64,000 bases of DNA, from contig NZ_RJJD01000001.1 in assembly GCF_003721515.1 (NCBI RefSeq), forward strand, positions 868,001 to 932,000, written 5' to 3'. The position numbers and the translations under genes were made by a program. The notes beneath the pieces are model-generated. The model was not told the origin of the DNA and made no database searches. It saw only the letters and a program-made list of their open reading frames with translations. Shown here in pieces: positions 33,444-64,000 of this stretch. The first letter of the stretch is position 1. Each line of letters begins with the position of its first letter. Source of the DNA: Rufibacter latericius (lineage in GTDB: Bacteria; Bacteroidota; Bacteroidia; Cytophagales; Hymenobacteraceae).

Positions 33444-36008
33444 TCACTTTGTTTTAAGCCTTAAAACCGAAATCGAAAAGGGTTTTAAACCTACTTTAAA
33501 AGAAGGCGCTACATTGTTCAGGGCAGTTGTTTGCGGCACGTACCTTATAGGGCTCGCAAAGGAATTCTCCGCCTCGTAGGAATCAGCGTTCAAGGTCACA
33601 ACTTCCCCAACAGGTGCCAGGTTGCTTACTCCTTCTACCTTAATATTAGCCTGATAGGGCTCTGAGGACCCGTTCACCACTTTCACGATGATATCGCCGG
33701 TTTTCTCGTCTACGCCGGAGATGCTGTAGAACATATCGGGGATGGTATAGCTCATGAGGAATTTATCATTCAGGTAGCAATCCACTTTGTCGAGGCCCAC
33801 TTCCAGCCGGATATCATACCAGCGGCCAGTCTCTATTTTCTCAGGCAGTTTGGTGGAGGAAGAAAGGTTGGCCACTTCGGTGCCTTCGGTTACCTGTTCG
33901 AAGACCGCGTACTGGTTCCAGTAAGAGCCTATGTGGGCCCGTATCTGCGTTTTGCCGCCATCTTTCACCGCAAACGGAATGATGAACGCATTGTACCCGC
34001 TGAGCTTGCGGCCTTTCAGCTTGAGAGTGTAAGTATCGTAGGATTTTTCTTTGAGCATGGCAAAAAGCTGCGCTCCCTCCGCGGTTTGGCCCATGGCGCC
34101 TTCCTTCACGCCCCAGGTGCCCCGCACCTTCTCCCACTCGCCTTCAGCTTTATCAAAGTTGCTGCTATAGACCACTTTGCCCTTCTGGATGACCTGGATG
34201 TCTTTGTACTCGGTCTGGGTGTCCCAGGTACTGAGACCAATGCCCCCGGCAAAAGCCGGCTTGGTTACCTTGGCGGGCTGCACCTGAACCGTGGTGGCCA
34301 GGTTCTGGTCGGCGCGGTGGTTGTTGAGCATCTGGATGGCGTAGTAGGAAATCCGCGCAAAACTCTGCGAATTATTGAAGTTGATCAGGTTCACCGGCCA
34401 GTCCACATCGTTGGTATTGACCAGCAACGGCGCGTAACTGGACATGGTCACCAGGTCGCCGTTACGCTCCATGGCAAGGATGTACACGGCGTCATTCAGC
34501 GCCGCGAGCATGTTCCCGCTGCCCACGCCAGCATTGGTGGCATATTCGCCCACGTACAGTTCCCAGTCGCCCCGTTTGTATTTGTCAAAGTGGTTGTAGT
34601 TGTTCATGGCCCAGAACGCCGATTTGTAGGCGTGCTCATCGGCGATGTCCAGCTTCTTCATCCCAGACAGGGTATGTTGGTTCACATCCCCGATACCCAT
34701 GCTGGCAATCACCTTCAGGTCTGGGTATTTGGCTTTGATGGCGTCGTAGAAAAGGTTGAACCGGTTAGCGTACCAGGGACCGTGCTGCTCGTTGCCCACT
34801 TCAACGTATTTTAAAGGAAAAGGAGCCGGGTGCCCGTTGGTGGCCCGTACTTTGCCCCATTTGGAGGTGGCGGGACCTACAGCGTATTCAATGGCATCCA
34901 GCACATCGGCAATCACCTCGGGCAATTGGGCATCGGGCAGGAAAGTGCCGCTCCTGAACTCACAGGCCACGCCGGCATTGAAGACGTACATGGCATCAGC
35001 GCCGGTGTCCTCGCAGAACTGCAAGAACTCATGGTAGCCGAGGCCGTCGCTGGACCAGTAGCCCCACGGGCTGAACGTACCCGGCCGTTTCTCCACCGGC
35101 CCAATGCTCTCTTTCCAATTGGGCGCACTTTCTACAGTGATGCCTTCCACAAAGCAACCGCCTGGCCACCGGATGAAGGAAGGTTTGAGATCAGCCAGGT
35201 ACTGCGCCAAATCCGGCCGCAAGCCGTTCTCCCGGTTCTTGTAGGTTTCAGCGGGGAAAAGTGAAACGAAGTCCAGAAACAATGTTCCGGTACTGCCGAA
35301 GCTGATAACGAATTTGGCTTTTGGATCAGAAACCTTCGCCACTAAATCACAGCTTAACTTTTGCCAGTTTCCGGCTTTGAGGGAGTTTTCAAATACGTGA
35401 CTGACCAGGGTTTTCCCGCCTTCGCTCTGAAGCGCCACGGTCAATGGTCCCTTGTATTTTTTCTCAGAGCGGGCGTAGAAATTGAGTTTGTAGGTTTTGC
35501 CCTGGTCCACCTTGATGCCCCAGAATCCCTCATTGACCAAGCTGGCATTGCCCGACTTATGGAGACCAGAAACGGTTACCTTCAGCGAGTTGGGCGTAGC
35601 CTCGTTCAGGGGCTTTTCCTGCGTTAAGGCCAGCGTTATGTTGGCCCCACCACTGGTCTGGCTTGACCAGGCCGGCCAATCAGACTTTAACGTCCAGGGC
35701 ATTTTCCAGTCGCTGGCTTGTCCGTTGGGCAGGTTGTAGTGCGGTGCCGGGTTAGGGACCAGAAACCCGTTCTGCAAAGTGGTACCTTTCGGGATGCGTA
35801 CTTCCTCAAAACCTCGGTTCTGGATCAGCTCGCCGTACAAGCCGCCTTCGCCCCCATGGCTGATTTCCTCAAAGAAGATTCCATGCAGCGATGGCGAAAC
35901 CTTCTTTTCACGCTTCTGGGCATCAATAGAGATGGTGGCCTGGCGCTGCCCTAAACAGACAGAAAACGAAGCAATCCAAAGAAGAAGAGTTCCAACTCTA
36001 GCGTTCAT
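33444..36008 (-). CDS. GH51 alpha-L-arabinofuranosidase, secreted
   Basis: 854 residues. Signal peptide 1-20. The order is: N-terminal beta strand unit, a CBM4/9-like domain (~100-255), the GH51 barrel (~260-545) with acid/base Glu407 (VEVGNEQHG) and nucleophile Glu488 (YVGEYA), a laminin-G-like insert (~590-740, SSNFDKAEGEWEKVRGTWGV), and the C-terminal beta domain. It removes alpha-L-arabinofuranosyl units from arabinans, arabinogalactan or the fourth arabinose of extensin Hyp-arabinosides. Last gene of the minus-strand run; 134 bases after the GH127 gene, with a long hairpin between. Confidence 0.92.
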   Translation of the reverse strand: MNARVGTLLLWIASFSVCLGQRQATISIDAQKREKKVSPSLHGIFFEEISHGGEGGLYGELIQNRGFEEVRIPKGTTLQNGFLVPNPAPHYNLPNGQASDWKMPWTLKSDWPAWSSQTSGGANITLALTQEKPLNEATPNSLKVTVSGLHKSGNASLVNEGFWGIKVDQGKTYKLNFYARSEKKYKGPLTVALQSEGGKTLVSHVFENSLKAGNWQKLSCDLVAKVSDPKAKFVISFGSTGTLFLDFVSLFPAETYKNRENGLRPDLAQYLADLKPSFIRWPGGCFVEGITVESAPNWKESIGPVEKRPGTFSPWGYWSSDGLGYHEFLQFCEDTGADAMYVFNAGVACEFRSGTFLPDAQLPEVIADVLDAIEYAVGPATSKWGKVRATNGHPAPFPLKYVEVGNEQHGPWYANRFNLFYDAIKAKYPDLKVIASMGIGDVNQHTLSGMKKLDIADEHAYKSAFWAMNNYNHFDKYKRGDWELYVGEYATNAGVGSGNMLAALNDAVYILAMERNGDLVTMSSYAPLLVNTNDVDWPVNLINFNNSQSFARISYYAIQMLNNHRADQNLATTVQVQPAKVTKPAFAGGIGLSTWDTQTEYKDIQVIQKGKVVYSSNFDKAEGEWEKVRGTWGVKEGAMGQTAEGAQLFAMLKEKSYDTYTLKLKGRKLSGYNAFIIPFAVKDGGKTQIRAHIGSYWNQYAVFEQVTEGTEVANLSSSTKLPEKIETGRWYDIRLEVGLDKVDCYLNDKFLMSYTIPDMFYSISGVDEKTGDIIVKVVNGSSEPYQANIKVEGVSNLAPVGEVVTLNADSYEAENSFASPIRYVPQTTALNNVAPSFKVGLKPFSISVLRLKTK

Positions 36009-36080
36009 ACGAAAACTGCCTTTTAGAATTCATTGCGGGGAGAGGTGTGGGATTGTAGGTCGTTTTTAGGAAAGGAGCTT

Positions 36081-36131
36081 TATCCTGAACTGGGAAACTC
36101 AAAGTCACTTTGAATTTCCCAATTCAGAATA
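36081..36131 (-). terminator. Long hairpin between GH127 and GH51 genes
   Basis: Arms 36081-36105 and 36107-36131 are near-perfect inverses (25 positions, few mismatches). There is no clean T-run after it on the minus strand, so partial termination or mRNA stabilisation is as likely as full termination. Confidence 0.6.
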
Positions 36132-36142: not shown

Positions 36143-38548
36143 TTACTTAACTGCCCACTCATGGATGCCCGTAGCTGCTTCCTTGGGCAACTGGATCTCC
36201 ATCCGTAGCGCGGTGGTTTTCACCGGGGCAAACTTAACCATGTTGTACTTGTCCTTGGCCACCTCGTAAGCCGTGGTGTTTTTCACCGGCACCCACTTGT
36301 CGCCTTGCTTGTAGAAGATTTGGTAAGAAGCTGGAATAGTGCAACCGCCCCATGGACTGTCATCAAACCAGTACACCTGCGACTCAGACACGGTATGCTC
36401 CCCGTCAAAATCCAGCTGCACAAACTCTTTGGTGTCTTTATTGGGCCACCAATGCAGGTAAGGGTAGTTGGAGTCGCGGGAATCCTGCGGATCGTACTGG
36501 TCTACCAATGCGGCCAAGGTTCTGGCGTTCTTGAGCGAGGCTGAGATCTTGCTGGTAGAGGCGATGGTGGGTGCGGGTTGCGGCTTGGCGGCCGAGGCCT
36601 CATAAGGTACCCACACCGTCATGTCCACTGAGCCGCGGTTGGCCCAGGCGAAATACGGGATGGCTTTCACGGCCTGTTCAGTTTGCAGCAAGGCGGTGGT
36701 GTTAGTCTGACGTTTGGTACCTACCCCGTTGGTCTTGATCACCGGCACTCCCTTCAGCAGACTTGCCTCGAAAGTCTCCTCCACGGGGGCATTCTTGTCT
36801 ACCAGGATGTTATGTACCAGGTTGTCTTTGTTATCGGGTCCTTCCAGGCAATACACCAATGGGCCGCGCTGGAACGAGAACTTCCCAAGATCGTCTTTCA
36901 CATTCTGGTTGGCCAGCACTTTCTCGGTTTCCATGGGCAGGTCAAGGGTGATTTTGTCCCCTTTTTTCCATTTCCGCTTCAAAACAGCATAGCCTTTCTC
37001 GGTGCTGTATTGGACGGGTTTCCCGTTCACTTTCAAAACGATTGGTTTCTTCGTAGCATCGGCGAAGGTGTACAAATCGCCAGGAACCGGCTGCTGCTGT
37101 GCCCAACCCGGTATCCTTACTCTGAGGGTAAAATCCTTATTTTTCTGAGGGTCTACTTCCAGATCTACGGTGCCTTTGTATGGGTAATTGGTGGTTTGTT
37201 TCACGTTCACGGAGCCGCCGGGCAAGCTGATGTCGCTGGTGCTGGTCATAAACAGGTTTACATACAGGTCATTGTTGTTCTGCGCGTACACGTAGCCCGG
37301 CACCGAGGGCAGGAAGCGTGTCATGTTGGAGATACAGCAGGCGCAGCTGAACCACTCGCCCCGCTGGTGCTGCCCCATGGAAGCCAGCGGATTGGGATAG
37401 AAGAAACGGTTTCCGGTGAGGGAAATGCCGGAAAGTAGCCCGTTATACAAGGTCCTTTCCAGCACGTCTATGTACTTAGCGTCGCCGTGCAGCAGGAACA
37501 TGCGGTTGTTCCAGTACACGTTGGCGATGGAAGCGCAGGTTTCGGCGTAAGCCGACATGTTGGGCAGCTCATACGCCTTCCCGAAAGCCTCGCCGGCGCC
37601 CGTCGCCCCGATGCCGCCGGTGATGTACAGCTTTTTGTTCACCACATCGCTCCAAATGGCGTCAATGGCTTTCAGGTAACTTTTGTCCCCGGTGAGTGCT
37701 GCTATATCGGCCATGGCGGTGTACATGTAAGTCGCCCGTACGGCGTGGCCCACGGCTTCTTGCTGGTCTACCACGCGTGCGTGCGCCTGGTTGTATTCAG
37801 TTCCTTTAGGACCGCGCACGTCCAGGAAGAACTTGGCCAGATCCAGATATTCTTTCTTGCCGGTGATTCTATAAAGTCTCGCCAACCCGATCTCCACCAC
37901 CTGGTGGCCTGGGTACTTCTCCTCCTTGCCGTACCCGAAGTCCTTCACCAGCAGATCGGCATTCTTCAGGGCGATATTCAATAGCGATTTCTTGCCGGTA
38001 GCCTGGTAATGCGCCACGGCCGCCTCAAACAGGTGACCCGAGTTGTAGAGTTCATGGCTGAGTTCTTCCTCTTTCTCCCAACGCTTGCTCCCGATCCACT
38101 CATGCGGCTTGGCGGCCTTCACCGTCCGGAAGGTAAACAGATACCCATCCGGCTCCTGCGCATCCCCAATGATGGTGATCAGGGAATCCACGTAGGCGTC
38201 CAGCTTGGGATTTTTCTGCACCTGCATGGCGTAAGAAGCGCCCTCGATCACTTTGTAAATATCGGTATCATCGAAGGTGAACTGACTGAGCTTGTCGCCT
38301 TCCATTTTCCCGGCCGCCCGCAAGAAATTGTCTATGCGGCCCTGTTCCCGGCTTTTCTCTAGGGTATGGGGAATGGTCACTGTGGCGTTCACCTTCATCT
38401 TGGGCGCCCAGAACTCATCATGCACGTGCACGTGCGTGAACGGCACCGGCTGGATGGGATAATCATTGTGTTGGTGCTGCGCCACTCCAGGTTTTGCGAG
38501 AAACACAAATCCGGTAAGGGCAACAGCCATGAATCTGTTTATGAACAT
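36143..38548 (-). CDS. GH127 beta-L-arabinofuranosidase with F5/8-like C-terminal domain
   Basis: 801 residues from the ATG at 38548, which opens the signal peptide (MFINRFMAVALTGFVFLAKP); the frame runs 31 codons further upstream. The (alpha/alpha)6 domain has all the zinc/thiolate residues known from the family: Glu336 and Cys338 in AETCAS and Cys404-Cys405 in CACCIS, of which the first of the CC pair is the expected nucleophile. The last ~150 residues (VSESQVYWFDDSPWGGCTIP, then YQIFYKQGDKWVPV) form a discoidin-like module. HypBA1-type GH127 cuts the beta-1,2-linked arabinofuranose found on hydroxyproline in plant extensins; this enzyme shares its key residues. Confidence 0.92.
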   Translation of the reverse strand: MFINRFMAVALTGFVFLAKPGVAQHQHNDYPIQPVPFTHVHVHDEFWAPKMKVNATVTIPHTLEKSREQGRIDNFLRAAGKMEGDKLSQFTFDDTDIYKVIEGASYAMQVQKNPKLDAYVDSLITIIGDAQEPDGYLFTFRTVKAAKPHEWIGSKRWEKEEELSHELYNSGHLFEAAVAHYQATGKKSLLNIALKNADLLVKDFGYGKEEKYPGHQVVEIGLARLYRITGKKEYLDLAKFFLDVRGPKGTEYNQAHARVVDQQEAVGHAVRATYMYTAMADIAALTGDKSYLKAIDAIWSDVVNKKLYITGGIGATGAGEAFGKAYELPNMSAYAETCASIANVYWNNRMFLLHGDAKYIDVLERTLYNGLLSGISLTGNRFFYPNPLASMGQHQRGEWFSCACCISNMTRFLPSVPGYVYAQNNNDLYVNLFMTSTSDISLPGGSVNVKQTTNYPYKGTVDLEVDPQKNKDFTLRVRIPGWAQQQPVPGDLYTFADATKKPIVLKVNGKPVQYSTEKGYAVLKRKWKKGDKITLDLPMETEKVLANQNVKDDLGKFSFQRGPLVYCLEGPDNKDNLVHNILVDKNAPVEETFEASLLKGVPVIKTNGVGTKRQTNTTALLQTEQAVKAIPYFAWANRGSVDMTVWVPYEASAAKPQPAPTIASTSKISASLKNARTLAALVDQYDPQDSRDSNYPYLHWWPNKDTKEFVQLDFDGEHTVSESQVYWFDDSPWGGCTIPASYQIFYKQGDKWVPVKNTTAYEVAKDKYNMVKFAPVKTTALRMEIQLPKEAATGIHEWAVK

Positions 38549-38750
38549 GGCGTAAAACGTTAAGGCTTTGAAAAATGGGGAAGGATGGAAAACCGAAACA
38601 GGTTTACCAGCGAAAAAGCGTGTCTGACAGACACCTTTCATCTAACCAAATTTAGATTTCCCAAACCACTTTCCCTGACCGGATATTAGCCGATGCTTCC
38701 ACCATATTAACATCAACCTAACATCTAACTCAGCCAGATGCCTGCAAGCT

Positions 38751-38981: not shown

Positions 38982-40367
38982 TTACCCCGCAGAACTTCTG
39001 AACTCTTCCATATTTCTTGGAACAGGATTTCCCAGCAGTCGGCTACCCTCCGGGGTAATCAGAAAATCCTCTTCAATCCTGATGCCACCGAAGTCTTTGT
39101 AGTTCGCTACCTTGTCATAGTTGATGAAGTCTGCATGCATCTTCTCCCCCGCCCAAAGGTCAATCAAATCAGGATTGAAGTAAAGGCCGGGTTCTACCGT
39201 CAAAACAAACCCTGGCTCCAGGGCACGAGCCAGCCGCAGGGACTTCAACCCGAATTGGTTACTCTTTTGCTGGTCCTCGGCGTAACCCACATACTCCTCG
39301 CCCAGGTCTTCCATGTCGTGGGTGTCCAGACCCAGCATGTGACCCAACCCGCACGGAAAAAACAAGGCGTGGGCTCCCTGCGACACTGCTTCCTGCGTGT
39401 CTCCCTTCATGAGGCCGAACTGCTTGAGTCCGTCTACCAGGGAAGCACAGGCCTGCAGATGCACGTCTTTGTAACGAACGCCGGGTTTGAGCATGGCCAC
39501 AGCTTGCTCATAGGCCGTCATCATCACCTCATACATTTCTTTTTGCTGATTGGAGAAGCGCTCGTTTACAGGGAAAGTACGGGTCATGTCACCGGAGTAG
39601 TGCATACTTGAGGCCGCGCCGCAGTCTACCAGCACCAGTTGGCCTGCCTGCAGTTGGGCGGAGCTGTAATGGTTGTGCAGAATCTGTCCGTTCACCGTGA
39701 GAATAGTGGGGAAAGCCAGGTCACCGCCGTCTTTGATAGCAATGGCCTGTAGCTGTCCTGCCAGTTCTGCCTCGGTCATTCCGGCCCGGGCCAGGAGGGC
39801 GGCCGTTTTCAGCATCTCACCGGTGGTATTGATGCCTTTCTCAATTTCTACCACTTCCTCCGGAGTCTTGATGGAGCGCTGCGCCACCACCGCCTTAATC
39901 AACGGCACTGATACTATGGACTTGATAGAAGCCGGTGACGTTTGCAGCCAAGAACTAAGCTTCAACAGGTTCTCGGGCCGGTAAGGAGGCAGAAAATGGA
40001 TTTCGCGCTTCTTTGCCAAAGCATCTTGAAAATAGGAATCCAGCGTTGAAATCGGTTTAGTCACACCTACCCCTATCTCACTGGCTTGCTCCCGGATGGA
40101 TTTCTGCGGCCCCATCCAGACAATGTCATCCGGCGTCAGCTCATCCCCAAAGATGATTTCGGTATCATCCTCTACATCCAACACCGCCACCAGCCCGGCG
40201 CGGTCAATCCCGAAGAAATACAGGAAGGTACTGTCCTGCCGGAAGTGGTACCAATTATCTTTGTAGTTCATGCTGCTCTGCTCATTGCCCAGCAGCACAA
40301 TCAACCCACTTCCTACCTGTTTTTTCAGCCGATTTCTCCGGCTCACGTACGTTTCTTTGGTGAACAT
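38982..40367 (-). CDS. pepP: Xaa-Pro aminopeptidase (M24B)
   Basis: 461 residues from the ATG at 40367 (MFTKETYVSRRNRLKKQ), the normal family start. An N-terminal AMP_N domain (1-~150) with NYKDNWYHFRQDSTFLYFFG is followed by the pita-bread catalytic domain with five metal ligands: Asp in LVDCGAASSMHYSGD (two), His in GLGHMLGLDTHD, Glu in LTVEPGLYF, and Glu in GIRIEEDF. It removes an N-terminal residue when the second residue is proline. No signal peptide, so it acts in the cytoplasm on imported peptides. It is embedded among arabinosidases and other proline peptidases. Confidence 0.93.
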   Translation of the reverse strand: MFTKETYVSRRNRLKKQVGSGLIVLLGNEQSSMNYKDNWYHFRQDSTFLYFFGIDRAGLVAVLDVEDDTEIIFGDELTPDDIVWMGPQKSIREQASEIGVGVTKPISTLDSYFQDALAKKREIHFLPPYRPENLLKLSSWLQTSPASIKSIVSVPLIKAVVAQRSIKTPEEVVEIEKGINTTGEMLKTAALLARAGMTEAELAGQLQAIAIKDGGDLAFPTILTVNGQILHNHYSSAQLQAGQLVLVDCGAASSMHYSGDMTRTFPVNERFSNQQKEMYEVMMTAYEQAVAMLKPGVRYKDVHLQACASLVDGLKQFGLMKGDTQEAVSQGAHALFFPCGLGHMLGLDTHDMEDLGEEYVGYAEDQQKSNQFGLKSLRLARALEPGFVLTVEPGLYFNPDLIDLWAGEKMHADFINYDKVANYKDFGGIRIEEDFLITPEGSRLLGNPVPRNMEEFRSSAG

Positions 40368-40491
40368 ATTCTTATCGTCTATCAGGTGCCCGCCCACTAC
40401 CGGCAAGCACTTCTGGTCTGTAACATCGGGGCACTCGAATTCAACTGATTTCCTTCAAGAAGAGGGTGAAGCACCTCCTTCCGGCAAACCT

Positions 40492-40538: not shown

Positions 40539-43796
<3,258 letters not shown>

Positions 43797-50295: not shown

Positions 50296-50352
50296 GGTTT
50301 TCAGAAAGGGCTTAAGGGTCTCAGGTAAGTAGGATAAGCGCAATCAGGGTTT

Positions 50353-54175: not shown

Positions 54176-54215
54176 AACACCTAAGCCCATGTTCAATTAC
54201 ATGGGCTTAGGTGTT
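54176..54215 (-). promoter_or_regulatory. Intercistronic 16-bp hairpin within the hydroxyproline operon
   Basis: AACACCTAAGCCCATG (54176-54191) and its exact inverse at 54200-54215, loop of 8. The right arm begins at the last base of the deaminase stop codon. No T-run follows on the minus strand, so it may partly terminate, protect or divide the transcript. Confidence 0.7.
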
Positions 54216-55147
54216 TACAAGGAGATAAGTTCTTTTTCTTTTTTGAACTCGGGCAAGGCCGGACGGTTTGCAAGGGCCTCATTGATAATGCCCAGAACTT
54301 CTTCGCGTTCTGCGCCTTCCAAAGGCAGGCGTGGCAGACGAACAGCTTCGGTTCCCAGGCCAGTACAGACTTCGGCGAGTTTGATGTTCTGCACCAGTTT
54401 AGGGTGTATGTCTAATTCCAGCAGCGGGTAGAACCATCTGTTAATGGCTACGGCTTCTTCCAGACGTCCGGATTTCACCAGATTGTAAATGGCTACGGTC
54501 TCACCCGGGAAAGCGCAAACTAAACCCGCTACCCAACCATCGGCACCCAGCACCAGACTTTCTAAGGCGATGGTATCCACACCGGAAAGGACTTTGAATC
54601 TGTCTCCGAAACGGGTCTTCATCTTGGTGATATTTCCTACATCGCGGGTAGATTCTTTCACCGCCTGAATGTTGTCTTCACTGGCCAGCTCTGCAAACAT
54701 ATCCAGGGTCACCAGGATGCGGTAATCAACGGGGTTGTTGTAGATCATGATAGGAAGCGGCGTTGACTGTGCTACGGCCTTGAAATAGGCTACGGTTTCC
54801 TTGTCATCCGCCTTGTAGCGCATGGGAGGCAACAGCATGAGTCCGCTGGCTCCGTTTTTACGGGCTTCCTCGGCCGCCTGAATGGCCTTGGCAGTAGACT
54901 GCTCGGCTACGTTCATGATCACGGGCACCTTCCCGCCCACGAAAGCAACGGTTTCTTTCACCAGAGTTGCTTTTTCTTCATCTGTTAAGGTGCTGGCTTC
55001 CCCTAAGGTGCCCCCTAAAATAATCCCGTCCACCCCGGCATTCAGCTGAGCCTCAATATTGCTCAGAAACGCAGGAATATCAAGCCGGTCATTATCCGTG
55101 AACTTGGTAGTGACAGCAGGGAAAACTCCTTTCCATTGTACATTCAT
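54215..55147 (-). CDS. DapA-family deaminase, probable 1-pyrroline-4-hydroxy-2-carboxylate deaminase
   Basis: 310 residues, TIM-barrel aldolase fold. Schiff-base Lys164 (IQAVKESTRD) and Tyr136 (IMIYNNPVDY) are present, with GGTLGEASTLT near 45 in the place of the usual GTTGE loop. In this operon it should convert 1-pyrroline-4-hydroxy-2-carboxylate to 2-oxoglutarate semialdehyde with loss of ammonia (the HypD/LhpC step). Dihydrodipicolinate synthase is less likely because the rest of the operon is hydroxyproline catabolism. First gene of the operon. Confidence 0.88.
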   Translation of the reverse strand: MNVQWKGVFPAVTTKFTDNDRLDIPAFLSNIEAQLNAGVDGIILGGTLGEASTLTDEEKATLVKETVAFVGGKVPVIMNVAEQSTAKAIQAAEEARKNGASGLMLLPPMRYKADDKETVAYFKAVAQSTPLPIMIYNNPVDYRILVTLDMFAELASEDNIQAVKESTRDVGNITKMKTRFGDRFKVLSGVDTIALESLVLGADGWVAGLVCAFPGETVAIYNLVKSGRLEEAVAINRWFYPLLELDIHPKLVQNIKLAEVCTGLGTEAVRLPRLPLEGAEREEVLGIINEALANRPALPEFKKEKELISL

Positions 55148-55218: not shown

Positions 55219-55357
55219 GCCGAAAGGGGCTGAAGCGGGTTCCTACATTTTACCCATTGGTAATACAGGATTATCAATTGGGCTTCTTATGCCGATTTCT
55301 CAATTAAGTTGGTTAAATTTAGGTACGTTCACCGTTTACTTTTTTCTCACCCAAACC

Positions 55358-56266
55358 ATGAAACCCCTTCATTTCAAAATCCCGAAGACGTCAGGAGAAT
55401 CGGTCCGGATTCAACATGATGAACAACGCCACTTCTATGAAAACCTGCATTTCCACCCGGAGCTGCAGATCATGGTCATTTGCGAAAGCACCGGAACCCG
55501 TTTCATTGGCGACAGCGTGGGTAGTTTCAATGCCGGGGACATCATTGTCTTAGGCTCCAACCTGCCGCACGTTTTCCGGAACGACAAAAGATACTACGAA
55601 TCTGACTCTGAGCTGAAGGCCGTCAATATATCGGTGTTTGTGGACCTTGCGGCTTTTGAAGATAATCTTTTCTCGCTTCCCGAGGCTCATGGCCTGCAAA
55701 GATTATTACTCAACAGCAAACGCGGATTGCTCATTCAGGGCGAGACCCGGAAAAAGGTCTTAGCCTTGGTTCAGGACATGCGCTCTATGAAAGGTTTTGA
55801 ACGCATCATCCAGGTCCTCATCATCCTCAACCTACTCTCCCACTCCAATGAAGTGGAAATGCTTTCCTCGGTGGGTTTCAACGCCAACCTCAACGAATCT
55901 GATAACCGCAAAATCAATGATGTCTTCAGTTACATCATGAACAACTTCACCGAAGACATCAAACTCAGCGATGCCGCCAACGTGGCCAACATGAGCGTGA
56001 ATGCGTTTTGCCGGTATTTTAAGCAACACACCCAGAAAACGTACTCCCAGTTCCTGAACGAAATCAGGATTGGCCATGCCTGCAAGCTGCTGATTGAAGA
56101 CAAATGGAACATCAGGGAAACGGCTTTTGAATGCGGGTATGACAATATCTCCTACTTCAACCGCCAGTTCAAAGACATCACCAATTTCACGCCCACCGAA
56201 TATGTGAAGCTCCACAACACCAAGTTCACCAGTGACTTCTCTTTGATGGAAACCACCGAAGCCTAA
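55358..56266 (+). CDS. AraC-family regulator, likely of hydroxyproline use
   Basis: 302 residues from the ATG at 55358 (MKPLHFKIPKTSGESVRIQ); the frame extends 23 codons upstream with no family likeness. An N-terminal cupin-like sensor domain (HFHPELQIMVICESTGTRF, then GDIIVLGSNLPHVFRN) precedes two helix-turn-helix motifs at ~205-290 (LSDAANVANMSVNAFCRYFK and RETAFECGYDNISYFNRQFK). It is the only plus-strand gene in the last 30 kb and is divergent from the hydroxyproline operon, so it is the obvious candidate regulator. The inducer is not known. Confidence 0.9.
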   Translation: MKPLHFKIPKTSGESVRIQHDEQRHFYENLHFHPELQIMVICESTGTRFIGDSVGSFNAGDIIVLGSNLPHVFRNDKRYYESDSELKAVNISVFVDLAAFEDNLFSLPEAHGLQRLLLNSKRGLLIQGETRKKVLALVQDMRSMKGFERIIQVLIILNLLSHSNEVEMLSSVGFNANLNESDNRKINDVFSYIMNNFTEDIKLSDAANVANMSVNAFCRYFKQHTQKTYSQFLNEIRIGHACKLLIEDKWNIRETAFECGYDNISYFNRQFKDITNFTPTEYVKLHNTKFTSDFSLMETTEA

Positions 56267-56303: not shown

Positions 56304-56340
56304 GTTTTGAGGCCGTTTTTGGGTTTTCAGGCCTAAACTA
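56304..56340. repeat. Dispersed intergenic palindrome, copy 19
   Basis: GTTTTGAGGCCGTTTTTG and TTTTCAGGCCTAAAC; lies between convergent genes and covers the stop of the S9 gene. This copy looks flipped relative to most others. Confidence 0.6.
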
Positions 56341-58653
56341 GATTTTAGACATTCCCTGGTCTTTGGTCTCCCAGGCTGGCGGATCTATGCCCAGCAGATG
56401 CTTCACGAAGAAGTCACGGCGCTTGTGCTCCCCATATTCCCCACCCGACGAGTGGCCCATTCCAGGTACCATCAGGAAGTCAAAGTTCTTGTTGGCTTTG
56501 ATCAAGGCGTCTACCAGTTGCAGCGTGGAAGCAGGGTCTACGTTGTCGTCCAGTTCGCCCAGAATCAGCATCAGTTTGCCCTGTAGTTTGTGGGCGTTGA
56601 CCACGTTGGAAGAGGCGGCGTACTCCGGCCCGATGGGGAAGCCCATCCACTGCTCATTCCACCACATCTTGTCCATCCGGTTGTCATGGCAACCCGCCGA
56701 GGAAACCGCCACTTTGTAGAACTCCGGCTGGAATAGCAAAGCCCCTGCCGAGCTCTGCCCTCCGGCGGATGTCCCGAAAATGCCTACCCGCGTCAGATCC
56801 AAATAAGGATACTTTTGAGCAGCAGCCTTCATCCAGGCAATGCGATCCGGGAAACCAGCGTCTTTGATATTTTTCCAGGCAACATCCTGGAAAGCCTTGG
56901 ACCGATTAGAGGTTCCCATGCCGTCTATCTGCACCACCACAAACCCTAATTCTGCCAGTTCCTGCATGTGCCTGGCCCCGGAATTAAACGTCTTGGGCAC
57001 AAACGCGCTGTGCGGCCCGGCATAGATGTATTCAATGACAGGGTACGTTTTGCCAGGGTCAAAATTGGTAGGCCGCACCACGATGCCCCAGATATCGGTT
57101 TGTCCGTCGCGGCCTTTGGCCGAAAACACTCCCGGGGCTTTCCAGCCGGTTTTCTGCAGTTCAGCGGCATCTCCTTTCTCCAATTCCATCACCACTTTCC
57201 CGTCGGTAGCACTTCTGAGCACCGTTACTGGTGGACTGTCTACCCGCGAGTAATTGTCCACGAAATACTTGAAATCAGAAGAGAAACTTCCGGTGTGGTG
57301 GGCATCTTCTTTGGTGAGGGCAGTAAGCCCGGAGCCGTCAAAGTTCACCCGGTAATACTGCACCAGATAAGGGTCCTGCCCTGCCTCACGGCCGCTTCCC
57401 TCAAACACAATGCTGCGGTCCTTTTCATTTACGTTGATGACTCTACGCACCACCCAATCGCCTTTGGTGATCTGGTTCTTGACTTGGCCGGAGGTACCGT
57501 CAATGAGGTAAAGGTGGTTCCAGCCATCGCGCTCAGAGGCCCAGATGATCTCTTTCCCATCACCTACATCCTGCCGGAATTTCTTGCCGCTATAGTCAAT
57601 AAAGGTTTTGCTTTCTTCTTTGATCAAATCCCGCACCTTGCCTGTGAGCGCGTCCACTTCCAGCACTTTGTAAGCCTGGTGCCCGCGTTGGTTATACTCC
57701 ACCGTGAACGCCTGCCCATTCTTCCGCCAGTTTGGGTTAGATAGGTCATATTGCTGCCCCACCCCGAAGAGCGCCGGGTCTACTGCGACCTGCCGTTTCT
57801 CCTCCACCAGAAAAAGTTGGGGAGCTCTTTGCGGCAGCGCATCGCCGGGTTTGAGGTAATTTCGGGTTTGCAGTTTGGGCTGGAGCTGATCCTTTGGGGA
57901 GGATTCGATCAGGTACAAGAGGTGCTCTTTGTTGGGACGAACCCGGTTGGTGGCCAGTTTTTTTGAATCCGGGGACCATTCCATTAAAGAAGAATAGTAC
58001 TCCCCTGCCGAGCCATCGAAACTCAGTTGATGCTCTGTTTTCTTGTCTTTAACCGGCCGGATGTAAACGTTGTAGTTTTTGATAAAGGCTTCCCATTGTT
58101 TGTCAGGGGAAAGCACCGGCTTGTTGCTTTGGTCGCTCCAGCGATCCCCCCAATAACGGTTGTTTTGGTCCGGGGCTTTCCCCAAGTTCTGCAGTTTATA
58201 AGACCCCAAAGTGCTGCGCCACTTCGTTCCTTCCGCGTTGAATTCAATTGCCTTGTCGTCCTCCACAAACGTGACCTCAGAGAAAGGAAGATTGTACGCT
58301 TCCACGGGCTTGCCTAAAGCGGCTGATAATTCTTTGGCTAGTTTCTGCTGATCGAAGGCAGGTTTTTTGGATCGTTTCTGGGCATTCACCAACATAAACT
58401 CCTTCCCTTTGGGTGTCTGCCGCACATACCAGAAAGTGTCTTTTCCCTTCTCCCAACTGAACCGCGAGGGCGCATGGTACACCTTCGTATTCATGGCGAC
58501 TTTCAGTTTCTCCGCCCGCTCATAATCTGCCTTGGTGCCCTGCGCCTTAAGTTGGGCAGAACTCAGCAGAACGATGGCACAAACCAAAATCTGTTTCAGT
58601 GTGAAGTGATGCCCACACGGGTTGATATTAGGAAGGTAGGGGAAGTGAAACAT
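56338..58653 (-). CDS. Second S9B (DPP-IV-like) serine peptidase, secreted
   Basis: 771 residues. A hydrophobic signal (about 20-36, ending LKAQ) is preceded by an unusually long N-tail of ~19 residues; an internal start is possible. The beta-propeller (FSWEKGKDTFWYVRQTPKGK, then ISWASERDGWNHLYLI-like blades) precedes the hydrolase domain with the elbow FGTSAGG, Asp in LGELDDNVDP and His in GMGHSSGG. The double-Glu DPP signature is not obvious, so its exopeptidase type is uncertain. Probably periplasmic, acting on short peptides along with the DPP-IV-like enzyme at 46145. Confidence 0.87.
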   Translation of the reverse strand: MFHFPYLPNINPCGHHFTLKQILVCAIVLLSSAQLKAQGTKADYERAEKLKVAMNTKVYHAPSRFSWEKGKDTFWYVRQTPKGKEFMLVNAQKRSKKPAFDQQKLAKELSAALGKPVEAYNLPFSEVTFVEDDKAIEFNAEGTKWRSTLGSYKLQNLGKAPDQNNRYWGDRWSDQSNKPVLSPDKQWEAFIKNYNVYIRPVKDKKTEHQLSFDGSAGEYYSSLMEWSPDSKKLATNRVRPNKEHLLYLIESSPKDQLQPKLQTRNYLKPGDALPQRAPQLFLVEEKRQVAVDPALFGVGQQYDLSNPNWRKNGQAFTVEYNQRGHQAYKVLEVDALTGKVRDLIKEESKTFIDYSGKKFRQDVGDGKEIIWASERDGWNHLYLIDGTSGQVKNQITKGDWVVRRVINVNEKDRSIVFEGSGREAGQDPYLVQYYRVNFDGSGLTALTKEDAHHTGSFSSDFKYFVDNYSRVDSPPVTVLRSATDGKVVMELEKGDAAELQKTGWKAPGVFSAKGRDGQTDIWGIVVRPTNFDPGKTYPVIEYIYAGPHSAFVPKTFNSGARHMQELAELGFVVVQIDGMGTSNRSKAFQDVAWKNIKDAGFPDRIAWMKAAAQKYPYLDLTRVGIFGTSAGGQSSAGALLFQPEFYKVAVSSAGCHDNRMDKMWWNEQWMGFPIGPEYAASSNVVNAHKLQGKLMLILGELDDNVDPASTLQLVDALIKANKNFDFLMVPGMGHSSGGEYGEHKRRDFFVKHLLGIDPPAWETKDQGMSKI

Positions 58654-59084: not shown

Positions 59085-60758
59085 TCAACGTGACGAAATG
59101 CTCTCCTTTCGGGAAGACTCCACGTAGAAGTTTGGATCAAGGGTGAGCTCGGTTCCAGGCTTCACACCGCTTACTTCTTTCCAGGCGGTTACCGGTTCCA
59201 GCCATTTCTCTTTTCCATTCAGGTACACTTTCACCGGTAAGTTGAACCCGTCCACTGTGTTACTCCAACGGTACTTGAGCGTGTTGCCGGCAAGTTGGTA
59301 CTCTAACTTGGGAATCCGGATGTCGCGGAGGTACTGGTTGAAGAAAGGCGTGAGGTCACGGCCTACTTGTTTGCTCAGGTAGTTTTCGATCTGCTGCGTG
59401 GTGACGGTCTGGTGGTAGAACGTCTTGTTGAGCCCCCGCAGAATGTCGCGCCACTTCTTGTCATTGTTGACTACCTGCCGAAGCGTGTGCAGCATGTTGC
59501 CGCCTTTGGGGTACATGTCGCCGGAGCCTTTGTGGTTCACGTTGTACTCCCCGATGATAGGCTGCTTGTTCCCGATGCCTGCTCTAGTGCCGATCACGTA
59601 CTCGCTGCCGGCTTTCTTGCCGTAATGATACTCCACGAAAAGGTTCTCAGAGTAGTTGGTGAAACTCTCGTGGATCCACATGTCGGCGATGTCTTTGTAG
59701 GTGATGTTGTTCGCGAACCACTCGTGCCCCGATTCATGGATGATGATGAAATCGAACTTCATGCCCCAGCCGGTGGACCCGCTGGGGTCCTTGCCCCGAT
59801 AGCCGTTTTTATAGCCGTTGCCGTAGGTGACGGCGCTCTGGTGCTCCATGCCGGTATAAGGCACCTCAATCAGTTTAAAACCGTCTTCATAGAAAGGGTA
59901 AGGCCCGAACCAATGCTCAAACGCCTTGAGCATACGGGGCGCGTCTTTGAACTGCACTTTGGCTTTCTCCAGGTTTTCTTTCAAGACATAATAATCCAGG
60001 TCCAACAGGCCTTTCTCGCCTTTGTATTTCTCGGAGAAATGCACGTAGTCGCCAATGCTCAGGTTCACGCCGTAGTTGTTGATAGGGTTGGCCACAAACC
60101 AATGGAAGGTCTTGGTGCCGTCGTTATTCTGCTTCACGCCCCGGAGTTTTCCGTTGGAAATATCCATCAGGTTCTCGGGCACGGTGACGCTGATCTGCAT
60201 GCTGTCGGGTTCATCGTACATGTGGTCTTTGCAGGGCCACCACAAACTAGCGCCATCGCCTTGGTTCGAGTTTGCCACGAAGGGCTGACCGTTGGCGTCT
60301 TTCTTCCAGGTGATGCCGCCGCTCCACGGTGGGTTCTTGCTCACCACCGGTTTGCCGCCGTAATACACCTCTACGGTGTTCACCGCACCCTTCGTCTGTT
60401 TCCGATCTAACTGGACAAACCAGGCATTGCCGTCGCGGGTGAAGGTGAGTTCTTTGCCGTTCTGCGTTACTTTTTCAATCTGCATGGGCGGCTGCAGATC
60501 CACCTGCAAGCGCTGGCTCGGCGTGAGGACTTTGTAGGTGATGGCGTTCATGCCTTTGATGGTGCTATCGGCGGGGTTCACCTTCACATTGAGGTGGTAA
60601 TACGCCAAATCCCACCAGGCCCGCTCCGGGGTGATGCTTCCCCGCAGGGTATCCTGACGAGTAAACGTTTTGGTCTGCGCCTGCGCGGCGGTGCCCCAAA
60701 GCAGCAGAAAAATGACCGACAAAAAACAGGTTCTCACGCTAAGTGATGTATAATTCAT
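59085..60758 (-). CDS. Secreted M1-family aminopeptidase, short form
   Basis: 557 residues; signal peptide ending AAQAQ (~residue 28). The beta domain (~45-230) precedes the gluzincin domain with HESGH (His341, Glu342, His345) and Glu364 (WIHESFTNY); the exopeptidase motif GMEHQS (303-308) replaces the common GAMEN. It lacks the long helical C-terminal domain of larger M1 enzymes. Likely trims N-terminal residues in the periplasm, in step with the neighbouring S9 enzyme. Confidence 0.9.
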   Translation of the reverse strand: MNYTSLSVRTCFLSVIFLLLWGTAAQAQTKTFTRQDTLRGSITPERAWWDLAYYHLNVKVNPADSTIKGMNAITYKVLTPSQRLQVDLQPPMQIEKVTQNGKELTFTRDGNAWFVQLDRKQTKGAVNTVEVYYGGKPVVSKNPPWSGGITWKKDANGQPFVANSNQGDGASLWWPCKDHMYDEPDSMQISVTVPENLMDISNGKLRGVKQNNDGTKTFHWFVANPINNYGVNLSIGDYVHFSEKYKGEKGLLDLDYYVLKENLEKAKVQFKDAPRMLKAFEHWFGPYPFYEDGFKLIEVPYTGMEHQSAVTYGNGYKNGYRGKDPSGSTGWGMKFDFIIIHESGHEWFANNITYKDIADMWIHESFTNYSENLFVEYHYGKKAGSEYVIGTRAGIGNKQPIIGEYNVNHKGSGDMYPKGGNMLHTLRQVVNNDKKWRDILRGLNKTFYHQTVTTQQIENYLSKQVGRDLTPFFNQYLRDIRIPKLEYQLAGNTLKYRWSNTVDGFNLPVKVYLNGKEKWLEPVTAWKEVSGVKPGTELTLDPNFYVESSRKESISSR

Positions 60759-60892: not shown

Positions 60893-62863
60893 TCACTGGG
60901 TATAATTCAGCATGATGCCGTTGATCTTGGTGGGCAGCCAAACCTGCATAGGGCTTTTGCCGCGGTTAGCCCAGGAATAGTACGGGATGGCAGTGATGGT
61001 TTTCCTTTGGGTTACCGTTGACAAACCATCGGCACTCACTGAGATAACCGGTACTTCGGCTTTCAAAGCTACCACGCCGTTTAGGAGCTGTTGGTTGAAA
61101 GTAGCCTCAAAACGGGTATCCTCGGGCACCACCATGTTCCAGGCGGCATTGCCGTTGTCCACGCCTTCAACGCAGTACACCAGTGGTCCGCGTTGCAGGG
61201 CAATTCTGTTCTGGTTGTAGGTCAGGCTGTCTTTGGCGACTACCTTTTTCACCTCCATGGGGAAGTCCAGTTCCAGGTGGTCGCCTTTTTTCCACTTCCG
61301 GTCGATAACGGCATAGCCCCGTTCCATTTTGTAGGGCACGGCTTTCCCGTTCAGTTTTAGGGTGAATTTAGAAGGGGTTTTGTCAGAGAAGCGGTACAGA
61401 TCGCCGGGCACCGGTTCTCCCTGTACCCAGCCCGGAATGCGCAGGCGCAGCGTCGCGCTGGTTGCCTTCGCCGGATTCACGGTCAGATCCACTTTGCCCT
61501 CCCAGGGATAATTCGTTTTCATCTCCAGCGGAAGGTTCCCGTTAGGAGTACTGAGGTTGGTCTGGCTCCCGATGTACAGATTCACCCACACCCCATTGCC
61601 GGACTGCGCATAGACGTAATTGCCCAAAGAGGCGATCAGGCGGGAAATATTAGCCGGACAACAAGCTGTCCCGAACCACTCGCTGCGCTGGTGCTGCCCC
61701 CGTGAGGCCAGCGGATTTCCGTAAAAGAACCGGTCGCCGCTCAGCGACAAACCATCCAGGGCCCCGTTGTAAAGGCTTCGTTCCAGCACGTCTACGTATT
61801 TGCTGTCGCCGGTCATGGAGCTCATGCGTTGGTTCCAGAACACCATGCCTACCGAGGCGCAGGTCTCGCAGTACGCATGCTCGTTGGGGAGGTCATAGTC
61901 TTTGGAGAAGCCTTCGTTGCGGCCAGAAGAACCGATGCCGCCAGTGATGTACATGTTGCGGTAGACCACGTCTTCCCACACGTTTTTCATGGCGCCCATA
62001 TACGCTTCATCGCCTTTCAGGGCGGCTACATCAGCGGCGCCGGTGTACATGTACATGGCGCGCACGGCGTGGCCTGTGATTTCCTTCTGCAGTTTCACCG
62101 GCACCACGTCCTGGGCGTAAGCGGTGTCTTTCCAATCGGTCCAGGTGTAGCCTTTGGCCAGTTTACGGCCCCGCTCCTCCAGAAGCCAATCGGCTAAGTC
62201 CAGGTACTTTTTGTTTTTGGTGGTTTTGTACAGCTTCACCAGGGCTAGTTCCAGTTCCTGGTGCCCGGTTACCCAGTGCTGCTTGCCCGGCCCGAAAAGC
62301 GAGGCGAAATGATCGGCAAACTTGATGGAAACATCCAATAGTTTGCGTTTACCGGTAGCCTCATAATACGCCACAGCCGCTTCTATGAGGTGCCCGCCGT
62401 TGTAGTCTTCGTGCATGCTCATGTCGGTCCACCGCTTCTCGGGGAACTGGAGTGTGTAATAGGTGTTCAGATAGCCATCGGGTTGCTGGGCTTTCGCGAT
62501 GAGGTCAATCCACTGATCAGCTTTCTTCTCCAGCTCAGCCGAGGGCTTGTTTTTGATGGAATAGGCAATCGCCTCCAGGGCCTTGTAGACATCGGAGTCA
62601 TCGTAGAAAATGCCTTTGAACTCACCTTTCTTCAGACCCGCCATGATCTCGAAGTTCTGGATGCGGGGCGTTTTCACCTCGGTTTGCTCAATACAGACCG
62701 GAATCGTGACGGTGGCCACTTGGTCAATACGGGGCTTCCAGAAGGCATCGTTGATGGTGACTTTGGAAAAGTTGACCGGCGCAATGTTCCTGATGCCTCC
62801 CTGCGCGAACGCCCCCGTCTGCACGAGGCAGAGGGCAAATAGACTAAGTATGTTCTTCTTCAT
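60893..62863 (-). CDS. GH127 beta-L-arabinofuranosidase, second copy
   Basis: 656 residues, close to HypBA1 in length. Signal peptide 1-20 (ending GAFA). The zinc/thiolate set is complete: Glu333 and Cys335 in CETCAS, Cys401-Cys402 in TACCPA, matching HypBA1 Glu338/Cys340/Cys417/Cys418 in order and spacing. Only the catalytic barrel and two beta domains are present; the discoidin-like module of the copy at 36143 is missing. It would remove beta-L-arabinofuranose from Hyp-linked arabino-oligosaccharides. 89 bases downstream of the GH146-like gene. Confidence 0.93.
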   Translation of the reverse strand: MKKNILSLFALCLVQTGAFAQGGIRNIAPVNFSKVTINDAFWKPRIDQVATVTIPVCIEQTEVKTPRIQNFEIMAGLKKGEFKGIFYDDSDVYKALEAIAYSIKNKPSAELEKKADQWIDLIAKAQQPDGYLNTYYTLQFPEKRWTDMSMHEDYNGGHLIEAAVAYYEATGKRKLLDVSIKFADHFASLFGPGKQHWVTGHQELELALVKLYKTTKNKKYLDLADWLLEERGRKLAKGYTWTDWKDTAYAQDVVPVKLQKEITGHAVRAMYMYTGAADVAALKGDEAYMGAMKNVWEDVVYRNMYITGGIGSSGRNEGFSKDYDLPNEHAYCETCASVGMVFWNQRMSSMTGDSKYVDVLERSLYNGALDGLSLSGDRFFYGNPLASRGQHQRSEWFGTACCPANISRLIASLGNYVYAQSGNGVWVNLYIGSQTNLSTPNGNLPLEMKTNYPWEGKVDLTVNPAKATSATLRLRIPGWVQGEPVPGDLYRFSDKTPSKFTLKLNGKAVPYKMERGYAVIDRKWKKGDHLELDFPMEVKKVVAKDSLTYNQNRIALQRGPLVYCVEGVDNGNAAWNMVVPEDTRFEATFNQQLLNGVVALKAEVPVISVSADGLSTVTQRKTITAIPYYSWANRGKSPMQVWLPTKINGIMLNYTQ

Positions 62864-62952
62864 TTTTTTGGTCTTTTACAAAAAACAGAGCGTAAACACT
62901 TGAGACAAAAAGGACCAAATAAAACCGTTTTCCTGATCCTTGTGATGAGATT

Positions 62953-64000
62953 CTATTTGGCAGATGCCCTTCCTGTGGCCACATTTTCCTTCACCATCCG
63001 GACACCATAGACCGGACCAGCGCTGTTCTTCGGCTTGGCCTGGAGGGTTACCGTCACCTGCTGCTTGCCTTTCACCAGCTCTTGCGGAAGGTCATACCCA
63101 ATGTCGTAGAACTTGCTTGCCTTGTACTTGTTCAGGTCCTCAGAGGCTATTTTCACGCCGTCCACCAGAATATCGAAGTTCCGGTCGCGGTTGTCCATGC
63201 CCCAGTAGGTAGCTATGAGGGTGTTCTTGGCAGTAGGCGCCACTTTCATCTTGAACACCAGCTTGCCGCCCTGTTTGGTGGCCCGCCACTTCCGGCCGTG
63301 GTCTTCTCCGTTTGTGATGCTGTCGCCGGTGAGTTCATGGTCGCGCTCGGGCTGCATCTCCCCTACCCGCAGGATGTCCACTGTGCGGGCTTCCAGGTCC
63401 CTTTGCTTCTGCTTTTCGGCTTCGTAGACTTTCTTCTGCACTGCCCACTTCTCGGGGGTGAACACGTCCCAGTAGACGGTGTAGTATTCGGTGCCGGTCT
63501 GGTTGAACGGGATGAGGTTCACCTGCTCTGGCACGGCAATGCCCGAAGTCTGGAACTGGAGTTTCTCTTCGTTGAGAGTTCTAATCCACTTGTTCGCGTT
63601 GTTCTCGCTGGTCACCAGCACCGGCACGCCGGTCACAGGCTCCGGCTCTTTCTCCCCTAACACGCCGGCCAGCAGCACCGGACCGTAGAACACGGCTTTG
63701 CGGTTGGGGTTATCGGGCATGGCTTCGGTGTAGAAATCAGATTGGGCGGTAAATTCTATTTTATCGTTGTTTTTCCAATTTCGGGTCAAAACCAGGTAGC
63801 CGTCTTTGCCTGGGGTTACTTTCTGGGGTTCGCCGTTCACTTTCACCTGCAGGTTTTTGCCCCAATGCGGTCGGCGGATGCGGAGCGGGAAGGTGGTTGT
63901 TTTAGCTGTGGCGATGGTTAGGGTGGTGTGGTCTTTGGCCGGAAGTTCGGTCTCCTGTTTCACCTTGACGCCTTTCTCCTTCCAGTCCAGCTCTGAGGGG
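62953..64000 (-). CDS. GH146/GH127-like beta-L-arabinofuranosidase, C-terminal part only
   Basis: The frame is open at the right edge; the GTG at 63963 is internal because in-frame coding sequence (SELDWKEKGVKV) continues before it. Only ~349 residues are seen: the beta-sandwich after the barrel (LRIRRPHWGKNLQVKVNGEP), the TEYYTVYWDVFTPEKW segment, and a C-terminal domain (YWGMDNRDRNFDILVDGVKI) seen at the end of larger DUF1680 enzymes such as GH146. The catalytic Cys lie outside the window. Third arabinofuranosidase of this fold in the locus. Confidence 0.82.
   Translation of the reverse strand, partial: PSELDWKEKGVKVKQETELPAKDHTTLTIATAKTTTFPLRIRRPHWGKNLQVKVNGEPQKVTPGKDGYLVLTRNWKNNDKIEFTAQSDFYTEAMPDNPNRKAVFYGPVLLAGVLGEKEPEPVTGVPVLVTSENNANKWIRTLNEEKLQFQTSGIAVPEQVNLIPFNQTGTEYYTVYWDVFTPEKWAVQKKVYEAEKQKQRDLEARTVDILRVGEMQPERDHELTGDSITNGEDHGRKWRATKQGGKLVFKMKVAPTAKNTLIATYWGMDNRDRNFDILVDGVKIASEDLNKYKASKFYDIGYDLPQELVKGKQQVTVTLQAKPKNSAGPVYGVRMVKENVATGRASAK

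Follow-up and report, generated by a model that had tools for sequence, protein, structure and literature searches.

A run of genes at positions 33444-64000 of the Rufibacter latericius DNA analysed here (64,000 nucleotides, called the window), continuing just beyond its right end, probably forms a glycoprotein-utilization locus, resembling a polysaccharide utilization locus (PUL), that feeds on both the glycan and the backbone of plant hydroxyproline-rich glycoproteins (HRGPs). This reading draws on gene content, synteny, co-occurrence, linkage across the class Bacteroidia and key catalytic residues. Open reading frames (ORFs) of the run were called in six frames, and the proteins were then scanned with Pfam and NCBIfam. 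From left to right, the run encodes GH51, GH127a, M24, GH2, GH97, an S9B DPP4-like peptidase, DUF885, a FAD-dependent D-amino acid dehydrogenase-like protein (DAO), the 4-hydroxyproline (Hyp) epimerase HypE, an aldehyde dehydrogenase (ALDH), a DHDPS-family protein, an AraC-family regulator, an S9 peptidase, an M1-like peptidase, GH127b and the C-terminal part of GH146. All genes lie on the minus strand, with the AraC gene (+) as the sole exception, and the re-called ORFs and both scans agree with the places and strands given in the initial annotation. That annotation had also seen no SusC/SusD pair inside the window. This is true because the window edge cuts just before the pair, which we found directly right of 64000, beside GH146; numbered as in the window (L003 coordinate + 62000), it spans about 65.7-70.4 kb, with 11 bases between the two genes. 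Counting the pair and the rest of GH146, the block comprises 18 genes. Its PUL features are the adjacent SusC/SusD pair and the co-oriented carbohydrate-active enzymes (CAZymes) with a regulator, conserved as a unit. Beyond SusC follows an acyltransferase gene on the opposite strand.

Linkage between HypE and GH127/GH146 genes was examined in an even sample of 396 Bacteroidia genomes. Of these, 48 encode HypE (E up to 1e-120), or 47 when the source genome is left out, as in all linkage counts. PF07944, the GH127/146 family, was present in 31 of these 47 genomes (82 genes). Twelve of the 31 had such a gene within 15 kb of HypE (10 of them within 10 kb), whereas random placement in the genome predicts 0.49 (P 2e-14). 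The 12 linked genomes span 6 of 19 genera; with one genome per genus, a mean of 4.9 was linked versus 0.29 expected (median P 7e-6, worst P 3e-3). This null, also used for the controls and for DUF5695 below, is generous because CAZyme genes cluster; yet GH97 under the same null showed no excess (1 of 32 genomes within 20 kb of HypE, 0.60 expected). As a partial control, no GH92 gene lay within 20 kb of HypE among the matches listed on HypE contigs. GH27 was near HypE (within 20 kb) in 3 of 11 genomes (0.13 expected, P 3e-4). Among the best 80 named HypE loci, GH127 or GH146 was found within about 10 kb in 20 by tblastn (19 by ORF clustering), including a Rufibacter locus (L035); DUF885 was found in 28, M24 in 16 and M1 in 12. 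The synteny check of GH127 and HypE across Bacteroidota proposed in the initial annotation thus gave adjacency in many genomes, above chance and in varied arrangements.

The arrangements were read from gene maps, whose labels are best BLAST matches to the window proteins, the amino-acid permease, GH27 and other cluster members rather than Pfam calls; one representative per neighbour cluster was scanned with Pfam, and later three more GH27 proteins and one more symporter. A glycosidase gene sits within the Hyp operon of G380 (DHDPS-ALDH-HypE-GH146-DAO), and similar same-strand orders are DHDPS-ALDH-HypE-GH127-DAO (L077), HypE-permease-GH146-DAO (L058) and ALDH-permease-GH51-HypE-DAO (L080). Another locus (L087) reads HypE-DAO-DUF885-S9-GH146-GH127, again on a single strand. 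Eight named loci, six of them from Mucilaginibacter, carry GH127-GH27-DHDPS-ALDH-HypE-DAO on one strand (L042, L046, L048, L051, L052, L057, L059 and L066), and GH27 was confirmed by Pfam in four of these (L042, L046, L051 and L059). GH27 and GH97 are distantly related alpha-glycosidase families. In these few lineages GH27 may stand in for GH97 as an alpha-galactosidase from a different family, which is what the Ser-alpha-Gal of extensin would call for. The part played by alpha-galactosidases is specific to lineages: GH97 shows no class-wide linkage and is absent from the Pontibacter copies, and GH27 occurs in the eight named loci.

Near relatives retain the block. HypE was found in 11 of 59 genomes searched, namely 6 of 16 Rufibacter (source genome included), 3 of 5 Pontibacter and 2 others. 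The block was syntenic in all five other Rufibacter genomes with HypE; these copies hold GH51 in 3/5, GH2 in 4/5 and GH146 in 2/5, and the remaining 15 members including SusCD in 5/5. The AraC regulator was present in all five of these loci and in all three Pontibacter loci. The Pontibacter genomes G022 and G017 carry 13 and 10 of the 18 members, respectively; these members, SusCD and GH127b among them, are 63-89% identical and rearranged. Orthologs of SusD (at least 78% identity) and GH127b (at least 79%) occurred in the same 8 of the 59 genomes, all HypE-positive, and in none of the 48 HypE-negative ones; three HypE-positive genomes (G026, G046 and G052) lack both. With the class-wide linkage, these results reject a block peculiar to one strain.

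Relatives of the block SusD (E up to 1e-95) were found in 11 of the 396 Bacteroidia genomes. Outside the source genome there are 11 related SusD loci, three at HypE (G091, G118 and G428) and eight elsewhere. GH127/146 is near eight of the 11, that is, all three at HypE and five others (G328, G125, G348 and G345 twice, one of the two G345 calls having 24% identity only); the gene maps showed none near the SusD loci of G258, G211 and G414. G125, which is HypE-negative, carries GH127-SusC-SusD-x-GH97-GH43-GH127-S9 (L146-L147), plausibly a set for extensin sugar removal with a prolyl-type peptidase and without Hyp catabolism. Class-wide, 5 of the 10 non-source genomes with this SusD family are HypE-positive versus 47/395 overall; this association is modest, and we therefore relied on the neighbourhoods. 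We take the SusCD clade to go with beta-arabinosylated substrates; some lineages would have added Hyp catabolism to it. In the block itself, SusD (L003:3713-5311; PF07980, PF14322; lipobox-like ISSC) and SusC (L003:5323-8388; TIGR04056, 753.9 bits, cut-off 368) are on the same strand as GH146. A further SusC/SusD pair, accompanied by a BglX-type GH3 gene (L003:17388-20000 to L004:9413), starts about 9 kb right of the block SusC on the opposite strand and is presumably a separate locus.

GH127a (36143..38641; PF07944, 1.6e-109) and GH127b (60893..62863; PF07944, 2e-105) are beta-L-arabinofuranosidase-like proteins, each with three Pfam GH127 domains. The nearest solved chains were 6ex6 for GH127a (746 bits) and 4qjy (558 bits) and 6ex6 (553 bits) for GH127b, ahead of 3wkw (HypBA1). 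Both proteins retain the HypBA1 catalytic set noted earlier: a Cys nucleophile and Zn ligands in ETC...ACC, an acid/base Glu preceding YELPN/YDLPN, and the substrate residues His/Tyr/His/Arg (HE.Y..GH, GH, GHAVR). In GH127b, Thr replaces the extra (first) Cys of the CACC motif. Residue roles follow PMC10850190. This residue set is not diagnostic of Hyp-arabinosides because the aceric acid hydrolase BT1003 is also a GH127 member (PMC10850190). GH127a and GH127b as aceric acid hydrolases of rhamnogalacturonan II (RG-II) were rejected, with 479.3 and 461.3 bits on NF049879 against a cut-off of 950.

GH146 (62953..64000 for the C-terminal part; whole gene L003:953-3352; PF07944, 4e-127) is also beta-L-arabinofuranosidase-like. 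It contains DUF6805 and DUF4986 and is BtGH146-like, and residues 49-787 have 5opj as the nearest solved chain (509 bits). Two characterised GH146 enzymes are described as acting on arabinofuranose (Araf)-beta1-Hyp (PMC10850190). GH51 (33444..36008; PF22848, 167 bits; PF06964, 72 bits), alpha-L-arabinofuranosidase-like with a signal-peptide-like N-terminus, is a candidate for the alpha-1,3-Araf of Ara4-Hyp. GH97 (44053..46035; PF10566, 8e-107) is a putative retaining alpha-galactosidase, a near miss on NF053844 (749.6 bits, cut-off of 800 not reached). It aligns over its full length with the alpha-galactosidase 3a24, and the nucleophile Asp that had been noted at this position is retained in KVDF, versus Gly in 5e1q. 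GH2 (40539..43736) is a LacZ-type beta-galactosidase (NF052611, 1037.5 bits, above the cut-off of 999). The bond-by-bond matching of enzymes to a glycoprotein in the initial annotation was not established: GH127 residues do not fix specificity, and GH51 and GH2 are generic.

The Hyp operon is compact, with gaps of 1 bp (DAO/HypE), 6 bp and 105 bp. HypE (51638..52639) scored 599.9 bits on NF010578 (cut-off 376) and has two catalytic-type cysteines, Cys90 and Cys253; dehydratase models scored well under their cut-offs. The trans-4-hydroxyproline pathway consists of HypE, D-Hyp dehydrogenase, a deaminase and alpha-ketoglutarate semialdehyde (KGSA) dehydrogenase. DAO (50389..51636; PF01266, 5e-71; PRK00711, 260 bits, under the cut-off of 383) is the presumed D-Hyp dehydrogenase, ALDH (52646..54109; PF00171, 4e-45) the presumed 2-oxoglutarate semialdehyde dehydrogenase, and the DHDPS-family protein (54215..55147; PF00701, 1e-59) the presumed 1-pyrroline-4-hydroxy-2-carboxylate deaminase; a PDB search with the last gave family-level matches only, to generic relatives. 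The AraC-family gene (55289..56266; PF12833) is divergent from the operon.

Peptidase genes lie on both sides of this operon. The DPP4-like S9B peptidase (46145..48361; PF00930/PF00326; best solved matches 5olj and btDPP4) has the DPP4 double-Glu motif WAYEEEF and the serine motif GWSGGG. The S9 prolyl-oligopeptidase-type protein (56338..58653; PF00930/PF00326) has GTSAGG and no DPP4-type double-Glu motif ahead of the catalytic part, which corrects the earlier account of two S9B peptidases. Likewise, one M1-type metallopeptidase (59085..60758; HESGH; PF01433, 58 bits, cut-off 27.7) belongs to the run, and a second M1 gene (26100-28433) falls outside it. DUF885 (48523..50343; PF05960, 4e-46; 3u24/3o0y/3iuk; HHELIAGHH motif) is a putative exported metallopeptidase, and M24 (38982..40406; PF00557 and PF05195; PRK10879, 166.7 bits, under the cut-off of 465) is Xaa-Pro aminopeptidase-like. 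The N-termini suggest that the glycosidases, both S9 peptidases, DUF885 and M1 are exported and that SusD is a lipoprotein; they also suggest that M24, which shows no signal peptide, and the Hyp enzymes are cytoplasmic.

A route through the locus can be proposed from these assignments. SusC/SusD would carry Hyp-rich glycopeptides or their glycans over the outer membrane into the periplasm. Sugars would be stripped there by GH127/GH146 (for beta-Araf, Araf-Hyp included), GH51 (for alpha-Araf), GH97 (for alpha-Gal) and GH2, and the Pro/Hyp-rich backbone would be shortened by DUF885, M1 and both S9 peptidases. In the cytoplasm, the Xaa-Pro aminopeptidase M24 would free Hyp from small peptides. 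HypE would then epimerise 4-Hyp, the FAD enzyme would oxidise D-Hyp, the DHDPS-family enzyme would deaminate the product, and ALDH would make 2-oxoglutarate. AraC is the likely regulator and might control these genes together. A gene for a sodium:neurotransmitter-type (SNF) symporter, absent from the window copy, lies between GH127b and M1 in two of the five other Rufibacter genomes, G011 and G002, and in Pontibacter G022 (L022:9602-11290, L024:9166-10854 and L026:7118-8776; two Rufibacter and one Pontibacter); it may be the missing Hyp importer. An amino-acid permease cluster occurs in 22 of the 80 named HypE loci (one member Pfam-scanned).

Unassigned neighbours gave one further recurring family. 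The 22 mapped loci hold 83 unassigned neighbour proteins of at least 300 aa; in the 74 of them that were scanned, DUF5695 (PF18951, about 900 aa) was the most frequent family (8). Nine of the 47 HypE genomes carry it, and in 6 of these 9 it lies no more than 15 kb from HypE (0.06 expected, P 9e-12); DUF5695 genes include L076:13405-16143, L079:88-2886, L102:2-2755, L112:16788-19565, L113:12332-15133, L120:5957-8875 and L126:2553-5240. The DUF5695 profile matched the PL27 protein BACCELL_00875 weakly (E 3e-6, profile positions 296-449). Its AlphaFold model is poor (mean pLDDT 50.5), and the best Foldseek match, a PL27 structure (E 1.7e-18), is therefore only a lead, which the weak profile match to the same chain backs. 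DUF5695, whose genes are linked to those for HypE and GH146-like proteins, appears to be distantly related to PL27. PL27 enzymes are described as freeing rhamnose from gum arabic (PMC8377490). GH146-like proteins of more than 1000 aa, with 34-35% identity to the Rufibacter GH146 and possibly a distinct subfamily, are encoded at L124:4283-7363, L126:7033-10074, L132:5567-8632 and in G348 (L148); the first three genes share a run with DUF5695. The L126 protein (G118) has an N-terminal LamG-type domain, as is described for Bll3HypBA1, which acts on arabinogalactan proteins (AGPs) (PMC10850190). The PL27 likeness and this LamG-type neighbour indicate AGP in the DUF5695 lineages. DUF5695 was not found in the source genome; none was found in the control genomes either, which makes this a weak negative.

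Several observations weigh against a dedicated HRGP locus. Within 20 kb of HypE, 35 of the 47 HypE-positive genomes have no GH127/146, and 60 of the 80 named loci, including Pontibacter L036-L041, show no such gene within about 10 kb (contig ends truncate 17 of the 80); the linkage is therefore a sub-pattern and not a rule. Gene order was read in 8 of the 12 linked genomes, and four (G162, G238, G314 and G444) rest on coordinates. GH97 was rejected as a class-wide part of HypE loci by its control count. Pontibacter G022 and G017 lack GH51, GH97, GH2, GH146 and a GH127a ortholog, and Pontibacter G026, which keeps the Hyp genes and the peptidases, has neither GH127 nor SusCD. Other neighbours of the linked loci include GH43 (3), alpha-L-fucosidase (2) and single GH42, GH31, GH88 and BNR_4 (among 25 of 72 families), which may fit AGP or pectin as well. 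In the operon, DAO, ALDH and the DHDPS-family protein belong to the right superfamilies, but none reaches a specific NCBIfam cut-off (for ALDH, among the 25 matches listed). All 18 block genes are assigned to families other than the beta-arabinobiosidase family GH121 (the remaining genome was not searched for it), and there is no obvious surface endo-glycosidase or endoprotease among them. The window copy of the locus has no Hyp transporter, as noted earlier (the remaining genome was not searched). Moreover, GH127/146 enzymes are also described as active on arabinan, AGP and RG-II, and one GH146 as beta-1,3-specific on AGP (PMC10850190).

The strongest rival is that two independent loci happen to be neighbours: a pectic-arabinan PUL (SusCD, GH146, GH127, GH51, GH97 and GH2) and a general operon for salvage of Pro/Hyp peptides. 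The modules do occur separately, the peptide/Hyp part without GH127 in G026 and Pontibacter L036-L041, and related SusD in five HypE-negative genomes, near GH127/146 in three, and arabinan, AGP and RG-II are described among the targets of GH127/146 members (PMC10850190). This separate occurrence keeps the rival alive. We nevertheless consider it unlikely: the genes are interleaved, with peptidase genes flanking the Hyp operon and also standing between glycosidase genes; a core set is retained despite the reshuffling in Pontibacter G017 and G022; linkage extends over 6 genera, with glycosidase genes even within the Hyp operon; and no pectin lyase or GH28 is among the 18 assigned block genes.

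A locus for peptides of collagen or gelatin, with animal Hyp, would have S9, M1, M24, DUF885 and the Hyp operon as its core, and its glycosidases would act on collagen or on unrelated glycans. The peptide/Hyp module without glycosidases is in line with this, and collagen carries beta-linked Gal on hydroxylysine, removable by a GH2. However, collagen lacks arabinose, yet the block has two GH127, one GH146 and one GH51, and GH127/146 is the commonest glycosidase among the annotated neighbour clusters at HypE (19 of 80 loci; several clusters are unannotated), making a collagen locus highly improbable. An AGP rather than an extensin locus would be a variant of the HRGP reading, since AGPs are HRGPs too. 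The alpha-galactosidases GH97 and GH27 fit the Ser-alpha-Gal of extensin, no exo-beta-1,3-galactanase, GH145 or PL27-type gene is among the 18 assigned Rufibacter block genes, and DUF5695, in the weak negative above, is missing from the source genome; an exclusive AGP locus thus has very little to commend it for Rufibacter, even though the block holds a GH2, DUF5695 of the Pedobacter/flavobacterial-type loci is distantly related to the PL27 rhamnose-glucuronate lyase of gum arabic, the L126 protein shares its LamG-type domain with Bll3HypBA1 (PMC10850190), and the GH127 BT3674 is described as helping to degrade larch arabinogalactan (PMC10850190). The earlier claim that HRGP deglycosylation, Pro-peptidases and Hyp catabolism form one unit is supported by the adjacency above chance in varied arrangements and by the SusCD pair; its further parts, 'complete' use and extensin over AGP, were not established.

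HRGPs hold much of the plant-wall hydroxyproline, and Hyp-arabinosides are thought to shield the backbone. Known systems resemble the probable HRGP locus in part. Bifidobacterium longum (HypBA1/HypBA2/HypAA) and Xanthomonas homologues likewise use GH127/GH146 for Hyp-linked arabinosides (PMC10850190, PMC6085000), and the HRGP enzyme genes of Xanthomonas adjoin a broken gene for a prolyl oligopeptidase (PMC6085000). Unlike the Rufibacter block, these systems include GH121 and GH43, and Bifidobacterium an ABC importer (PMC7263609); the block instead has SusCD, GH51/GH97, several peptidases and the Hyp operon, and the accessible texts on the two systems mention no Hyp catabolism. Bacteroidota PULs such as that for RG-I with the GH146 BT0349 (PMC10850190) share the SusCD pair, exported exo-glycosidases and a regulator gene. 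Unlike them, the block also encodes peptidases directed at proline and an operon for amino-acid catabolism, so that its target seems to be the glycoprotein backbone as well as the glycan. Bacterial trans-4-hydroxyproline operons hold the same four enzyme families in one operon. In the accessible part of a neighbourhood study of the proline racemase superfamily (eLife 2014, PMC4113996), a word search gave no hit for arabinofuranosidase, glycos-, collagen or extensin. For Latescibacteria (WS3), GH127 and AGP enzymes were predicted in silico for HRGP degradation; the accessible text describes no single locus, Hyp catabolism or linkage analysis (PMC4454575). Among titles and abstract starts, with partial coverage and few subscription journals, we found no description of Hyp catabolism and HRGP glycosidases in one locus, which is a weak negative.

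The accessible accounts describe the bacterial HRGP systems for sugar removal (PMC10850190, PMC6085000). If the HRGP reading is true, the backbone, too, supplies some Bacteroidota with carbon and nitrogen, a feeding strategy perhaps not described as such; HypE beside GH127/146 would be a genomic marker for HRGP-backbone use, and such loci would offer an enzyme source for Hyp-arabinosides and a handle on DUF5695 and DUF885, which recur there. The modular distribution, with a peptide and Hyp module without glycosidases and SusCD with glycosidases without the Hyp module, suggests a unit assembled from parts that also work alone. We give even chances to a broader proposal: a widespread class of Bacteroidota loci that consume the arabinosides and the backbone of HRGPs, repeatedly assembled from different parts, with DUF5695 as their PL27-like enzyme and a SusCD clade that imports Hyp-glycopeptides and not plain oligosaccharides. 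In such loci, GH127/GH146/GH51/GH43 would deal with arabinose and GH97 or GH27 with Ser-galactose; S9/M1/M24/DUF885 would handle the backbone, SusCD with an SNF symporter or amino-acid permease would serve import, and the HypE operon would take care of Hyp.

Two further features lie left of the block in the window. A tmRNA gene (tag GESNYAMAA) is located at 32341-32711, near the left edge of the block. An ORF of 229 aa at 29167-29856 matches the first ~100 positions of the SusC/RagA model alone and perhaps encodes a stand-alone carboxypeptidase-regulatory-like domain.

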